Assembly: GCA_002840765.1 (NCBI GenBank)
Contig: PHCE01000003.1
Span: forward strand, 149,743 to 213,742
DNA length: 64,000 bases
Source: Betaproteobacteria bacterium HGW-Betaproteobacteria-7
GTDB taxonomy: Bacteria > Pseudomonadota > Gammaproteobacteria > Burkholderiales > Rhodocyclaceae
Direction of reading: 5' to 3'
Both the position numbers and the translations under genes were made by a program. This document shows positions 537-5,920 of the stretch, one piece after another. How positions within the stretch are numbered: the first letter of the stretch is position 1; every line of letters starts with the position of its first letter. The notes under the pieces were generated by a model. That model was not told the DNA's origin, ran no database searches, and worked only from the letters and a program-made list of their open reading frames with translations.

Positions 537-968
537 TCAGAACCGGATATCGGCGTTTTCACCGCTGCCACCGGCGCGACCGTCACGACCAAAGGAAAGC
601 AACTCGAAATCACGTCCGCTGCTGACATTGCTCTGGCGATAAAAGTAAGCGTTACCCCACGGGTCGACCGGGATATCTTTCTGCAGGTAAGGACCATTCC
701 AGCGCGGCTGGTTGTTTGGGCGGTTACGTAAAGCTCTCAGGCCGATCTCAGCGGAAGGATAGCTCCCGGTGTCGAGCCGGTATGATTCCAGCGCCCGAGC
801 CAGTGCCTCGATCTGCGTGCGGGCAGCAGTCACTTCCGACTTGTCGATTTGCGCCAGGTAGCGCGGCCCGACATAGGCTGCCAGCAAACCAATGATGGCA
901 ACGACGACAAGCAGTTCGAGCAGAGTAAAACCGGCAGATAGCCGAGAAATATCCGGTTTGTAGAACAT
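537..968 (-). CDS. gspG: Type II secretion major pseudopilin GspG
   Basis: The 143-residue protein has a class III prepilin leader. A short basic N-terminus is followed by G|FTLLELLVVVAIIGLLAAYV, with the prepilin peptidase site before Phe and the conserved Glu at mature position 5. The C-terminal half has the GspG pattern: IEALARALESYRLDTGSYPS, then NGPYLQKDIPVDPWGNAY and a calcium-loop-like FGRDGRAGG stretch. It is the major subunit of the periplasmic pseudopilus. The start at 968 has a good ribosome site (GGAGAAACG). It lies downstream of the fccAB-like genes on the same strand and immediately upstream of gspF. Only these two secretion genes are visible, so whether a complete system follows cannot be judged here. 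Confidence 0.92.
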   Translation of the reverse strand: MFYKPDISRLSAGFTLLELLVVVAIIGLLAAYVGPRYLAQIDKSEVTAARTQIEALARALESYRLDTGSYPSAEIGLRALRNRPNNQPRWNGPYLQKDIPVDPWGNAYFYRQSNVSSGRDFELLSFGRDGRAGGSGENADIRF

Positions 969-1031: not shown

Positions 1032-2333
1032 TTAAGCGAAGCTGTCTTCCATCAAAGCGTTAAACCACTTGAACATTTCCTTGTAGTTGTCCTGTGAACG
1101 AGCCGTCGCCTCACCGGAAGCCGCAGGCACCGCCTGCATGCTGCCGCTCACCGGGTCGTAGGCAAACACTGCGGTCAGCCACGATGCCGTATCCGACGTG
1201 ATCGGCGAATAACAGGCCGAGTTGGTGATCGGCGACGGATCCGGGCTACGTCCGGCCAGCAAACGCACGATGGCATCGGCACAAATCTTGGCTTCCTGAT
1301 TGGCGATATGGCCGGCCTTCGGCTGGGTGGTTGCCGAGGCATCACCGATGACGTGGATGCCGGGCGCCGCAGTGGACTGATAGGTCAGCACATCAACCCC
1401 GGCCCAACGGCCACTGACATTGGCCAGCCCGTTGTCAATAACCACCTTGCCGGCGCGATGCGCCGGAATAGCATTGATCACGCTGGCCTGGAGATTGCCC
1501 GCACTGGTGTTGAGGGTCATTGTGCTGGCATCAATACTGTTGATGCTGATGCCGGGGCGATAGTCGATAACGCCCCTGTGCACGACGTTGAAAGCATCGG
1601 CAAAAGCCAGCGGCTCGGCGGTAATGCCCGGATTGGCATCGAGCACGATAACCTTTGAGCCAGGGCGGTTCTTCTTTAGCCAGTCCGCCACAACGCAAGC
1701 ACGTTCATAAGGGCCAGGTGGGCAGCGATAGGGCTTGGCCGGAATGGTCATCGCAAAGACGCCGCCAGGTTTCATGGCAAGCAACTGGTTGCGCAGCACT
1801 GTGGTCTGCGTGCCCGCCTTCCAGGCATGTGGCACCTTGGCTTGGGCGGCTGCTGTTTCAAGGCCGGGAATGGTATCGAAATCAATACCCGGGGCGACCA
1901 CAAGGCGGTCGTACGGCAATTTTCTGCCATCAGCCAGAGTGACGCTATGGCCCACGGGGTCAATCGCGGCAACATCACCCTTGACCAGACCGACGCCATA
2001 GCGGGTGGCCAGGTTGGTATAGCCGAATTGCAGCGAAGTCATCGTGCGCTGGCCGTTGAGTACCAGATTGCTCAGGATGTTCGAGGCATAGGAAGTTTCA
2101 CGCTCGACCAAGGTAACCAGAACGCCCGCGCCGCCCCAAAGGCGAAGGTACTTGGCAACAGTTGCACCCGCCATGCCACCGCCGATAACGACGACGCGGC
2201 CTTTAATGCCGGTATTGGTGGGAACGGTCCCTAGCTGGGCAGGCGTCGCCGCACGCACCAGGCCGGATAAACCGGCAGCAGAAATACCTGCGCCAGCCAT
2301 GCTGGCCAGACGGAAGAAGTCACGACGATTCAT
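1032..2333 (-). CDS. Flavocytochrome c sulfide dehydrogenase-like flavoprotein (FccB/SoxF family)
   Basis: A 433-residue periplasmic flavoprotein. The N-terminus MNRRDFFRLASMAGAGISAAG is a twin-arginine signal. It is followed by a dinucleotide-binding fold (VVVIGGGMAGATVAKYL), the family-typical FRCPPGPYERA-like segment (here PYRCPPGPYERAC), a second FAD region (GIHVIGDASATTQPKAGH) and the C-terminal FCSD domain ending KWFNALMEDSFA. Compared from memory with Allochromatium FccB, the cysteine that binds FAD covalently (YTCYLSN) is Asn here (YASNILSN). One cysteine of the redox disulfide is Ser (GDAC to GDAS), while the other (RCPPGP) is present. The fold and the cytochrome partner are clear, but canonical sulfide oxidation is doubtful. 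Its start overlaps the cytochrome stop by 4 bases (ATGA), so the two are translationally coupled. Confidence 0.8.
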   Translation of the reverse strand: MNRRDFFRLASMAGAGISAAGLSGLVRAATPAQLGTVPTNTGIKGRVVVIGGGMAGATVAKYLRLWGGAGVLVTLVERETSYASNILSNLVLNGQRTMTSLQFGYTNLATRYGVGLVKGDVAAIDPVGHSVTLADGRKLPYDRLVVAPGIDFDTIPGLETAAAQAKVPHAWKAGTQTTVLRNQLLAMKPGGVFAMTIPAKPYRCPPGPYERACVVADWLKKNRPGSKVIVLDANPGITAEPLAFADAFNVVHRGVIDYRPGISINSIDASTMTLNTSAGNLQASVINAIPAHRAGKVVIDNGLANVSGRWAGVDVLTYQSTAAPGIHVIGDASATTQPKAGHIANQEAKICADAIVRLLAGRSPDPSPITNSACYSPITSDTASWLTAVFAYDPVSGSMQAVPAASGEATARSQDNYKEMFKWFNALMEDSFA

Positions 2334-2716
2334 GATTTCGACTCCTTTTTCTCTGATTTTTTGGACGTCTTAACGTCCGCGGCAGTCGTGCTGGAAGTTG
2401 ATTTTTGCGTCGCCAGATAATCCGCAATCAGTCGCATCTGCGCATCGGTGTAACCCCGTGCATGCATGTCCATGATGTCCGGCTTCGATTTGGCGCGCAT
2501 TTCACGCAGCTCTTTGTAAATCTCATTGGACGACTCGCCAGAGAGGCGCTCAAAGCCGATGCGCGATTTGCCATCGTAGCCATGGCACTGGAAGCAGTTC
2601 GATGCAAGAAGGCGACCCGCTGGCGGGGCTGTAGTGGTTTGAGCAGCAACACAGGTGCTGGCCAGGGCGACCGGGAGCCAGAGCAGGGCTCGCCAGCGCG
2701 TTATTTCTCGATTCAT
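2330..2716 (-). CDS. Monoheme c-type cytochrome, FccA-like partner of the flavoprotein
   Basis: The 128-residue protein has a Sec signal (ALLWLPVALASTCVAAQ) and one heme-binding motif, NCFQCHGYDG, near residue 41. A plausible axial Met lies in PDIMDMHARGYTD, and the domain closes with a helix (MRLIADYLATQ) typical of class I cytochromes c of the FccA/cytochrome c553 type. The C-terminus is a Lys/Ser-rich tail (TSKKSEKKESKS). It should accept electrons from the flavoprotein encoded immediately downstream, with which it overlaps by 4 bases. Canonical FccA proteins of phototrophs are diheme; this one has a single heme. Confidence 0.82.
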   Translation of the reverse strand: MNREITRWRALLWLPVALASTCVAAQTTTAPPAGRLLASNCFQCHGYDGKSRIGFERLSGESSNEIYKELREMRAKSKPDIMDMHARGYTDAQMRLIADYLATQKSTSSTTAADVKTSKKSEKKESKS

Positions 2717-2873
2717 GATGAACCTCCGAAGTGGTATCTAGGGATTGGGACTGACTTTTTGCGGCTCCTGGCCGAATCCGCAGAACGGATATTCATCGTT
2801 TGCCAGCAAAAGTTCGCATGTCGTCCACCCCCGACACTTTTGCTGCTGAGTGCTCTGGCTTACGATGCTGGCC

Positions 2874-4310
2874 ATGAAGCGTTATCCCCGATCACTTTTG
2901 CAGCTGATCACCTTGGGACATTTCCTGTTCGCGATGCCATTACTCATTGCGGCTGGCTATGTTTTCCTCAAACTGCAAACCCTCAATGGCCACTACCGTG
3001 CCGCGATTGAACACGCCTCAATTTCCTCAAGGTTGAGTGGTGAATTGGCAGAAGATCTTCTGCACATGGAACGTAACCTGCGTCGTCATGTGCTTCTGAA
3101 AAACGCCGACACTCTCCACGATTACAATGATGTTCGCATCGAGTGGGAGGGGCATGTTGCCGCGTTCGCCCGCCTGCCGCAGCTACCTCTGGGTATCGTC
3201 AACGAACTGCAAGATCTGGTGGATAGTGAAAAGCGGGCCTATGTCGCCATGCTGGATAGCGGGAATACATCAACTCTGCAAGCGGCAATCGATGAACTTA
3301 AGCAGCGTTCAAATACCACGCTGGAGTCGGCGCGACAGGTCCTTGATGACGACCAGGCGAGATTCCTTCGGGAGTCGGAAGCGCTGAGCCAGCGACTTAT
3401 CCTGGCCGCCGTCATGGCGGTTGGGGTCGCCCTCTGTTGTCTGTGGGCAGTCAGATCGCTACTGGCTCGCCTGATCGGTCGCTTTGAGCGAGCGCTGTTG
3501 AGGTTGGGTAAAGGGGATCTGCAGCAGCCCATCGAACTCGACGGCCCCGGCGACCTGCGCTGGCTGGGCCGCTGGCTGGAATGGTTGCGCCGCCGCCTGC
3601 TTTCACTGGAAGAAGGGCGAACCCAGGTCTTACGCCACGTTTCCCATGAACTAAAAACGCCGTTGGCCGCCATGCAGGAAGGTAGCTCATTGCTGGCAGA
3701 GGAAGTGCCAGGGCCGCTGACGCCTGAGCAACGCCGGATCGTCAATATCCTGAAAAGCAACTCCCGGCGCCTCCAGGATCTGATTGAAGGCCTGTTACGC
3801 CTGCAACAGGCGGGGCACTTAGCTGAGCGTATCGGCTTTGAAACGCTGCGCTTTGATCAGTTGATTGAACAAGTGCTGGAAACCTGTCGCTTGATTGCCG
3901 GAGAGCGCAGCATCAACTTCCACTGCGAACTCCGCGAAACCGAGATTTTCGCCGGACGCGAGGCACTGATCACCATTGTCCATAACCTGCTATCCAACGC
4001 CATCAAGTTTTCGCCGGAGTACGGATGCATTCGGGTCACGCTGCAGCACGACGCGGATCAAGCGGTACTCGATGTCATGGACGAAGGCCCCGGCATATCC
4101 CGGCGGGATGCCAAACAGATATTCGAACCATTTTATCGCAGCGAGGCATCACGCCAGATCGCTGGCATCGGGCTTGGTCTGGCTATAGCCCGGACATTTG
4201 TTCTGGCACACCGGGGCGAGATTTCGCTTTTGCCAGCGAGTGCCGGCGGACATTTTCGCGTCACGCTGCCATTGAAAGCCCCCTATCTTGGAGCACAAGT
4301 AGATGGTTAA
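2874..4310 (+). CDS. glrK: Sensor histidine kinase, GlrK/QseE type
   Basis: A membrane histidine kinase of 478 residues from the ATG at 2874. ATG 2865 or GTG 2850 in the same frame would add 3 or 8 residues, and none has a strong ribosome site. TM1 lies around residues 10-32 and a helical periplasmic region at about 33-170. TM2 is LILAAVMAVGVALCCLWAV, followed by HAMP. The phosphoacceptor box is RHVSHELKTPLAAMQEG, and the ATP lid has N, G1 and G2 boxes (NLLSNAIKFSPE, DVMDEGPGI, GIGLGLAIA). All catalytic motifs are intact. It heads a three-gene unit with a QseG-like lipoprotein and a GlrR-like regulator, the order known from enterobacterial glrK-qseG-glrR. It is divergent from the cytochrome gene. 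Confidence 0.85.
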   Translation: MKRYPRSLLQLITLGHFLFAMPLLIAAGYVFLKLQTLNGHYRAAIEHASISSRLSGELAEDLLHMERNLRRHVLLKNADTLHDYNDVRIEWEGHVAAFARLPQLPLGIVNELQDLVDSEKRAYVAMLDSGNTSTLQAAIDELKQRSNTTLESARQVLDDDQARFLRESEALSQRLILAAVMAVGVALCCLWAVRSLLARLIGRFERALLRLGKGDLQQPIELDGPGDLRWLGRWLEWLRRRLLSLEEGRTQVLRHVSHELKTPLAAMQEGSSLLAEEVPGPLTPEQRRIVNILKSNSRRLQDLIEGLLRLQQAGHLAERIGFETLRFDQLIEQVLETCRLIAGERSINFHCELRETEIFAGREALITIVHNLLSNAIKFSPEYGCIRVTLQHDADQAVLDVMDEGPGISRRDAKQIFEPFYRSEASRQIAGIGLGLAIARTFVLAHRGEISLLPASAGGHFRVTLPLKAPYLGAQVDG

Positions 4311-4319
4311 GGATTCGCC

Positions 4320-4583
4320 ATGTTGAAGTTAGTGCTAACGGTTGTTGCCGTGGCCGGTCTGAACGGCTGCACCACCCGCGGTGGGCACCAGTCACCCGAG
4401 GTACAGACCGAACCGACGCCTGTCAGTAGAGCACTGGCCGATAAACAACGTCAGTGCCTGAGCGAAAAGCGGCGCATGGAGATCGCTCTTAGAGATAGCG
4501 AGAAACAGGTTGACGATTTGCAGAAAAAACTTGACGTACTGCTCGCCATCGACCGCGAACTGCGCAGCAAAAAAGCCCGCTGA
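4320..4583 (+). CDS. qseG: Small QseG-like lipoprotein
   Basis: An 87-residue protein with a lipoprotein signal (LTVVAVAGLNGCTT, lipobox Cys near residue 17) and a C-terminal coiled coil (RALADKQRQCLSEKRRMEIALRDSEKQVDDLQKKLDVLLAIDREL). Its position between a GlrK-type kinase and a GlrR-type regulator, together with this architecture, supports a QseG/GlrG-type accessory lipoprotein that modulates the kinase from the outer membrane. It starts 9 bases after the kinase stop, and its TGA overlaps the next ATG (TGATG), so translation is coupled. Sequence identity to QseG is likely low, and the call rests mostly on context. Confidence 0.7.
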   Translation: MLKLVLTVVAVAGLNGCTTRGGHQSPEVQTEPTPVSRALADKQRQCLSEKRRMEIALRDSEKQVDDLQKKLDVLLAIDRELRSKKAR

Positions 4584-5920
4584 TGGCCCTGGGTGCGCAG
4601 ATTCTGGTTGTCGATGACGACCTTGACATGTTGCATCTGATCGGCCTGCGCTTGACGGCAGCCGGCTATCAGGTCAGCGAAGCCAGTTCGGGTGAGGCAG
4701 CGCTGCTTAGTTTTTACCGCAATCGCCCGCAAATGGTGCTCACTGACCTGCGTATGGAAAAGATGGATGGCCTGGCGTTGTTTGACCGCTTGCAGGCTGA
4801 GGCACCGACCATGCCAGTGATTGTCCTGACGGCGCACGGCACCATACCCGATGCTGTTATGGCCACTCAAAAAGGGGTTTTCAGTTTTCTGACCAAGCCT
4901 TTTGATGGTCAGGAACTCCTGCGACGCGTGGCTGATGCGATCCGCCTGTCGCCATCGGTCGACGCCAAAAATGGCTCGGCGCATTGGCGCAATGAATTGA
5001 TCACCACCAACGTCCGTATGGAAGAGTTGTTGCGGCAGGTGTTGCGTGTCAGCGCAGAGTCCCAGACTTCGCTGATCGTAGGGCCGAGCGGTTCCGGTAA
5101 AGAGAACCTGGCGCAGGCGATTCGAAAAGCCGGGCCGCGTGCTGAGCAGCCCTACGTTTGTATTTCCTGCACCGACTATCCGGCCAATGCACTCGAAGAC
5201 ATGTTATCGGCGGGGAATCCCGACAACGTTTATGCACAAGCTGCCGGTGGCATCCTTTTTTTGCAGGGTGTTTCAGCCTTGTCGCTGATTGCGCAGGCGC
5301 GACTGTTTTCTGTGCTCTTCGCGCAAGCTCAAGCCAGGGACCCTTTACAGCGACTCAACTCGGCGCCTCAGAAGAGTGCCCCGCTTGACGTACAGGTTAT
5401 CGCCGCGAGCCCGCGGCCACTTGATGCTGAACTGGCGGAAGGGTGCTTTCGCAGTGACTTGTTCTACTTGTTGAGCCGGACGACCTTGATCATTCCGCCC
5501 TTGAGCGAGCGCAGCGAAGATATCCCGCTTCTCGCCAATTATTTTCTCACCCGCATTCGCCCGGAAAAATCGCTGACACTGTCTCCTGAGTCGCTCTCAG
5601 CGCTGCATGAAGGACGCTGGCCGGGGAACATCCGTCAATTGAAAAACGTGCTTGAACGAGTCGCCGAATTAAGCTTGACGCCGGTAATTCCCGAGAGCGC
5701 CCTTCGTCGCATCATGCGGGAGTCAGAAGAAGACAGCCTGGCCGCTTTTGACGATGCGCGCCGTGAATTCGAGCGCGACTATCTGGTTCGCCTGCTGCAG
5801 GCCACCGCTGGCAATGTCTCGCAGGCGGCGCGCGTGGCGCAGAGAAACCGGACTGAGTTCTACAAACTTCTTGCCCGGCATGGCTTGGATCCAATCAACT
5901 TCAAACAGAAATTTCGCTGA
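4583..5920 (+). CDS. glrR: GlrR/QseF-type response regulator with a degenerate sigma-54 AAA+ domain
   Basis: A 445-residue NtrC-family layout: REC domain (residues 5-120, DDD near 11, phosphoacceptor in LTDLRMEKMDG, Lys in LTKPFDG), AAA+ domain (145-370) and a Fis-type HTH (GNVSQAARVAQRNRTEFYKLL). The AAA+ part is abnormal. Walker A is present (GPSGSGKEN). The stretch that should read ELFGHxxGAFTGA is replaced by EDMLSAGNPDNVYAQAAGG, so the sigma-54-contacting GAFTGA loop is missing. Walker B LFLDE is LFLQG. The later WPGNIRQLKNVLERV motif is intact. It probably cannot hydrolyse ATP or remodel sigma-54 holoenzyme, and may act as a plain DNA-binding regulator. No frameshift is visible and the frame is open throughout. 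Confidence 0.85.
   Translation: MALGAQILVVDDDLDMLHLIGLRLTAAGYQVSEASSGEAALLSFYRNRPQMVLTDLRMEKMDGLALFDRLQAEAPTMPVIVLTAHGTIPDAVMATQKGVFSFLTKPFDGQELLRRVADAIRLSPSVDAKNGSAHWRNELITTNVRMEELLRQVLRVSAESQTSLIVGPSGSGKENLAQAIRKAGPRAEQPYVCISCTDYPANALEDMLSAGNPDNVYAQAAGGILFLQGVSALSLIAQARLFSVLFAQAQARDPLQRLNSAPQKSAPLDVQVIAASPRPLDAELAEGCFRSDLFYLLSRTTLIIPPLSERSEDIPLLANYFLTRIRPEKSLTLSPESLSALHEGRWPGNIRQLKNVLERVAELSLTPVIPESALRRIMRESEEDSLAAFDDARREFERDYLVRLLQATAGNVSQAARVAQRNRTEFYKLLARHGLDPINFKQKFR

Follow-up and report, generated by a model that had tools for sequence, protein, structure and literature searches.

A clade of GlrR-family response regulators without the GAFTGA loop, and a GlrR box at predicted sigma-70-type divergent promoters

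The stretch of DNA analysed here (the window; 64,000 nucleotides of contig PHCE01000003.1, Betaproteobacteria bacterium HGW-Betaproteobacteria-7) encodes a GlrR-family response regulator in which the GAFTGA segment is missing. ATP hydrolysis is coupled to sigma-54 by four elements of the AAA+ domain: the GAFTGA loop, the Walker B glutamate, the second arginine finger and the N-switch. The locus raises the question whether a protein altered in these elements is still a working regulator and, if so, at what kind of promoter it acts.

The reading frame (4583..5920, + strand, ATG start, 445 aa) is open and full length. Its domain order is REC, degenerate AAA+, HTH_8, with matches to Response_reg, Sigma54_activat, an AAA lid and HTH_8. 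GlrR (NF011695) is the top NCBIfam match with 387.7 bits, a score that does not reach the equivalog cut-off of 763 bits. D12, D55, T83 and K105 of the receiver domain (4601..4936, + strand) are intact. Walker A is present as GPSGSGKE (5081..5104, + strand; GPSGSGK is residues 167-173, including Lys173), WPGNIRQL is found at residues 346-353, and the Fis-type HTH (GNVSQAARVAQRNRTEFYKLLARHGLDP; 5744..5878, + strand) is near that of normal GlrR. In the alignment the place of the absent L1/GAFTGA loop falls at residues ~208-211 (5204..5215, + strand): the region reads ALEDMLS-AGNPDN (residues 203-215), and GAFTGA is deleted. At the Walker B position (5255..5269, + strand) LFLQG stands in place of LFLDE (ILFLQG, QG being residues 228-229). 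The arginine of the second arginine finger (FRxDLYYR) is replaced by L296, the first arginine finger, R290, is retained, the N-switch VNC reads ISC, and sensor I is altered too. The GAFTGA loop, the Walker B Asp-Glu pair and the full arginine fingers expected of a sigma-54-dependent bEBP are not found in the window regulator. Together with the conserved REC and HTH, the L1 deletion places the protein, by its sequence, among regulators of the GAFTGA-less NtrC type. In an AlphaFold2 model (mean pLDDT 84) the nearest fold matches were Brucella NtrX, NtrC1 and NtrC4, with VpsR (7v2b) lower in the list.

The regulator shares an operon with a kinase and a lipoprotein, in the order kinase-lipoprotein-regulator. 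The GlrK/QseE-like histidine kinase (2874..4310, + strand) has HisKA and HATPase_c domains; its ORF opens with GTG at 2850, and the conserved start, MKRYPRS, is at ATG 2874. The GlrG/QseG-like lipoprotein (4320..4583, + strand) was recognized by its lipobox, LNGC. Thus the original prediction read the translation correctly: Walker A and WPGNIRQL are retained, GAFTGA is missing, LFLDE has become LFLQG, and a full-length regulator stands beside an intact kinase and a lipoprotein, the latter short. The lipoprotein has 87 aa in the window, 104-106 in the two nearest relatives and ~170 in other members, so that the lipoprotein of the window subclade is roughly half as long as usual (87-106 vs ~170 aa).

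Alignment with GlrR homologues of the group, which the original prediction had proposed as a check, showed that the loss is clade-wide and that within the family a single clade has it. The top matches in 200 genomes of the family split into two kinds, with and without GAFTGA. In a tree of 43 rows all 22 GAFTGA-less sequences formed a single clade (support 100/100), nested among GAFTGA-bearing GlrR; its grouping with the sister group had support of 87/74. Placement in the tree, family match and operon assign the regulator to the GlrR/QseF lineage. By the clade profile and inspection, the GAFTGA-less form occurs in ~30 of the 399 genomes and 12 of the 68 genera of the family: 27 genomes scored >600 bits, and G787, G099 and G150 scored below this value with the loop absent on inspection. 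Members of genus g11 with scores of 566-584 bits belong to the GAFTGA type (L026, L034 and L035 read GAFSGA), and GAFTGA is retained in the other GlrR proteins read from the family. In a sample of 300 genomes of the order, matches above 547 bits came only from four carriers, all of the window's family, and all 26 next-best loci read GAFTGA, GSFTGA or GSFSGA. In a class sample of 274 genomes none beyond the window's own passed 1e-166. An equal loss was found in independent genomes (L009, 86% identity; L017, 72%; G845, G925 and G934, 67-70%), the last three, of the window's genus, reading LYLQN or LYLQD at Walker B. Because the loss recurs at 67-86% identity, sequencing error, which had been named as a finding that would undo the prediction, is ruled out. 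A different kind of change was seen in genus g58 (L082, L083, L084, L085), whose GlrR-like proteins keep GAFTGA and the Walker motifs intact but seem to have lost the receiver phosphorylation residues; a GlrK-like kinase was looked for just upstream of these loci and not found.

The published QseF/GlrR site is TGTCN10GACA (PMC8745638). A pattern scan found an exact match, TGTCGTCCACCCCCGACA (2819..2836), in the gap that separates the kinase operon from the divergently oriented fccA-fccB-gsp cluster, and this predicted box is common to both promoters. Box-anchored comparison places a predicted -10 for the kinase operon, TACGAT (2861..2866, + strand), at a distance of 24 nt from the box, and on the other side, also at 24 nt, a -10-like GAATAT (2789..2794, - strand), which lacks the first T. 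The transcription start predicted for the kinase operon lies about at the ATG. The mRNA is predicted to be leaderless, the -10 ending 7 nt before the conserved ATG, and relatives with a kinase-type promoter have similar -10 to ATG spacing.

By itself the pattern, searched as such in whole genomes, is not enriched: exact TGTCN10GACA occurs 34 times in the 4.4 Mb window genome vs 31 in the control, and the window holds 23 sites with at most one mismatch vs 20 expected. From 34 exact sites the chance of finding one in the roughly 160-bp intergenic gap is ~0.001. The weight of the box comes only from its position and the -10 element. In 11 systems, of which two have one mismatch, it is found between -54 and -60 relative to the kinase start, and four further systems have it upstream of a cytochrome-kinase operon. 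TAnnAT starts exactly 24 nt past the box in 13 of 15 systems and at 26 nt in the other two; nAnnAT was found at 24 nt on the opposite strand in all 15. Any other offset was seen in at most two (TAnnAT side) or three (nAnnAT side) of the 15. The composite pattern occurred, one copy each, in 12 of 200 family genomes, all of them carriers (12/20), and in none of the 180 non-carriers. The chance of this placement is 2e-14, a figure to be read with the pattern having been derived from those carriers; independence from that derivation holds only for a hold-out set and for the 180 non-carriers. Of ten newly added carriers forming the hold-out, eight had the box, with TAnnAT at 24 nt in seven and nAnnAT at 24 nt in seven; a ninth had a variant box, TGTCTCAATGCCACGACA, with both elements. 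By hand tally the box is present in ~26 of 32 GAFTGA-less systems with readable upstream DNA, a few with one mismatch or a shifted element, and absent in six, five of genus g66 and L052 of genus g30. In the boxless g66 systems the kinase mostly lies behind a tRNA-like sequence and the loop is partial. Additional CCGACA-type boxes at other places in the genomes of carriers G038, G160 and G069 were set aside, having no -10 element at 24 nt. These positions put the box at promoters that are, as predicted from sequence, of the sigma-70 type.

The divergent cluster consists of fccAB and compact type II secretion-like genes (gspG, F, E, M-like, secretin). Its first gene encodes an FccA-like c-type cytochrome (2330..2716, - strand; domain search), followed by an FccB-like flavocytochrome c sulfide dehydrogenase flavoprotein (1032..2333, - strand; FCSD_central, 2.8e-34) and a GspG-like pseudopilin (537..968, - strand; domain search); past the window edge it extends through gspF, gspE, a T2SSM-like protein and a secretin. 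In loci of a second type the kinase operon shares one side with genes for a multihaem cytochrome c7 and an FAD/Fe-S oxidoreductase, and on the other side lie a multihaem cytochrome and an NHL-repeat protein. There is one composite site in the window genome, so the regulator looks local.

What would such a regulator do? It had been proposed that the protein binds DNA under the control of phosphorylation and has become independent of sigma-54, the adjacent gsp genes being among its candidate targets. Clade-wide loss of the loop, intact REC and HTH, purifying selection, the box 24 nt from sigma-70-type -10s both ways and the lack of a sigma-54 promoter nearby all argue for the first proposal, and the -10 facing the fcc-gsp cluster is consistent with the second. 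We consider it likely that the regulator is phosphorylation-controlled and sigma-54-independent and switches on both divergent operons from the shared box, most likely acting as an activator at about -45. The locus would then represent a GlrK-GlrG-GlrR three-component system whose response regulator gave up sigma-54. The kinase would phosphorylate the regulator, a dimer or oligomer of which, possibly ATP-bound, would occupy the single box and contact sigma-70 RNA polymerase on both sides in a class II-like manner, centred ~-45.5. The kinase-lipoprotein-regulator operon and an electron-transfer cluster (fccAB-gsp in the window, multihaem cytochrome genes in other members) would be turned on together, making the regulator a local, autoregulated switch. 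The GlrR box is reused, but in place of an enhancer site ahead of sigma-54 promoters it has a fixed place at two predicted divergent sigma-70-type promoters.

The same box and promoter anatomy could also serve a sigma-54-independent repressor, in which phosphorylated or unphosphorylated regulator on the box would block RNA polymerase at both promoters until a signal changes its state. Repressing GAFTGA-less regulators have been published, for example Caulobacter NtrC at CtrA-activated genes (PMC10274813). However, on each side the box stops just short of the predicted -35, covering neither -35 nor -10, and an activator that works by contact needs such an exact spacing of 24 nt. The -35 hexamers are weak, with ~3/6 matches, slightly above shuffles. 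Because of this position, the near-invariant spacing and the weak hexamers activation is preferred, and repression appears unlikely.

Intact GlrR loci differ in their promoter context. They have a sigma-54 -24/-12 element 146-378 bp downstream of glrR, and in those with exact nearby boxes the box lies roughly 65-190 bp upstream of the sigma-54 element (coordinates compared by hand). The 24-nt -10 arrangement was not seen at these boxes in the same comparison. In intact loci of the window's genus the boxes upstream of the kinase are paired, at a spacing of ~65 bp, and face a divergent sigma-54 element. The window genome also encodes an intact GlrR, 45% identical to the GAFTGA-less regulator, and another exact TGTCN10GACA site stands upstream of its GlrK. 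At this locus (L065, G000:C9) two boxes lie 64 bp apart upstream of the kinase, with sigma-54-like elements on both flanks, one of them before a BON-domain protein gene. With two such proteins in one genome and a similar HTH and box family, the GAFTGA-less regulator could be a decoy that occupies the boxes of normal GlrR and blocks sigma-54 activation by its intact paralogue. Yet intact GlrR is absent from 15 of the 20 carrier genomes examined, and the boxes at the two kinds of loci differ in inner sequence and placement. As a general function antagonism was rejected on the first of these grounds, and we regard it as very improbable.

Loss of rpoN as proof of sigma-54 independence was ruled out: all 20 carrier genomes have rpoN, so sigma-54 is available to them. 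The regulator might still work with sigma-54, either by forming mixed oligomers together with intact bEBPs or by some unusual route, and point mutants of Caulobacter NtrC, which is also without GAFTGA, affect sigma-54 genes (PMC12421884). Against this, scanning of the GAFTGA-less loci found no sigma-54 element near the box, whereas the intact loci have one, and the second arginine finger has been lost as well. Such a route is barely plausible.

The motif table (22 clade members vs 17 normal GlrR) shows which parts of the protein were kept. The receiver residues and the Walker A lysine are kept in 22/22 clade members. The Walker B aspartate is kept in 17/22 and the glutamate in 4/22, vs 17/17 in normal GlrR. 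The N-switch and the second arginine finger are each kept in 1/22, vs 17/17. The window subclade changed most: it has also lost the Walker B aspartate, which is replaced by Q in the window's genus and by K in L009 and L017. Mean pairwise identity of the AAA core is 46% in the clade vs 71% in normal GlrR, that of REC 76% vs 64% and that of HTH 78% vs 71%. Between the window regulator and L009 dN/dS was 0.10 for REC, 0.09 for the AAA core and 0.015 for HTH, values which indicate that every domain is under purifying selection. The claim that the regulator is maintained agrees with this and with the conserved operator and operon. Decay or an artefact, which the progressive loss of AAA+ motifs might suggest, is hardly credible with open frames in ~30 genomes, this selection, the conserved operator and operon, and a loss common to relatives at 67-86% identity.

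From the motif losses, the retained Walker A and the low dN/dS, the AAA+ domain is probably maintained as a folded, ATP-binding module minus the hydrolysis and sigma-54 parts; the regulator probably binds ATP without hydrolysing it. More tentatively, a single event may have turned a sigma-54 enhancer-binding protein into a symmetric sigma-70 class II activator on one inherited box, with the non-hydrolysing, ATP-binding AAA+ domain serving assembly only and the partial-loop members representing intermediate stages; we would put this at somewhat below even. Regulators of genus g66, in which part of the L1 loop remains and Walker B reads DE, may represent an intermediate or a separate route. A tRNA-like sequence directly precedes the kinase operon at four loci of this genus (L050, L058, L064, L212).

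The system resembles GlrR/QseF, GlrK/QseE and GlrG/QseG in gene order, REC-AAA+-Fis HTH architecture, the TGTCN10GACA box and the best NCBIfam match. Unlike GlrR/QseF, the clade regulator has no GAFTGA loop and a degenerate Walker B and arginine finger, and the clade box is predicted at ~-45 of sigma-70-type promoters, not upstream of a sigma-54 promoter. NtrC of Rhodobacter capsulatus and Caulobacter has an L1 deletion and a conserved phospho-Asp and is reported at sigma-70 promoters (PMC10274813). The clade regulator is likewise NtrC-type with these two features; in contrast to those NtrC proteins, the clade arose independently, from GlrR, has lost Walker B and the second arginine finger as well, and has a single box common to divergent promoters. 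VpsR, HupR, TyrR and other bEBP homologues without GAFTGA are reported or inferred at sigma-70 promoters (PMC3162934, PMC10274813), and GAFTGA-less bEBPs are reported to act there without ATP hydrolysis (PMC10274813). The clade regulator shares the atypical bEBP fold with VpsR, HupR and TyrR, but differs in family and signals. The closest solved full-length structure, by profile and fold, is Brucella NtrX (5m7n/5m7o/5m7p), which is ~28% identical and belongs to the NtrYX system.

Regulators at sigma-70 promoters that lack GAFTGA are already known as a kind; earlier cases were known singly (alphaproteobacterial NtrC, VpsR, HupR, TyrR). Our literature search found no paper pairing GlrR with Rhodocyclaceae, and the best matches to a search for GAFTGA with the genera of the window's group did not mention GAFTGA. 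As far as the literature searched shows, three things are new: a clade that arose from GlrR, the promoter layout of this clade, and the pairing of parent and derivative within one family. Parent form (GlrR, sigma-54 promoters) and derived form coexist in one family, sometimes in one genome, and the same kind of DNA box stands in two promoter contexts, so that the switch from enhancer-type action to polymerase contact is directly testable by swapping boxes and proteins. There is also a warning for annotation: domain matches label such proteins as sigma-54-dependent, and their targets are then sought with the wrong promoter model. The regulator is tied to poorly understood cytochrome and sulfide-dehydrogenase clusters. 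Upstream of the window, at L158 7847-17711, the compact type II secretion-like cluster joined to fccAB ends with a spermidine-synthase-like methyltransferase-fold gene.
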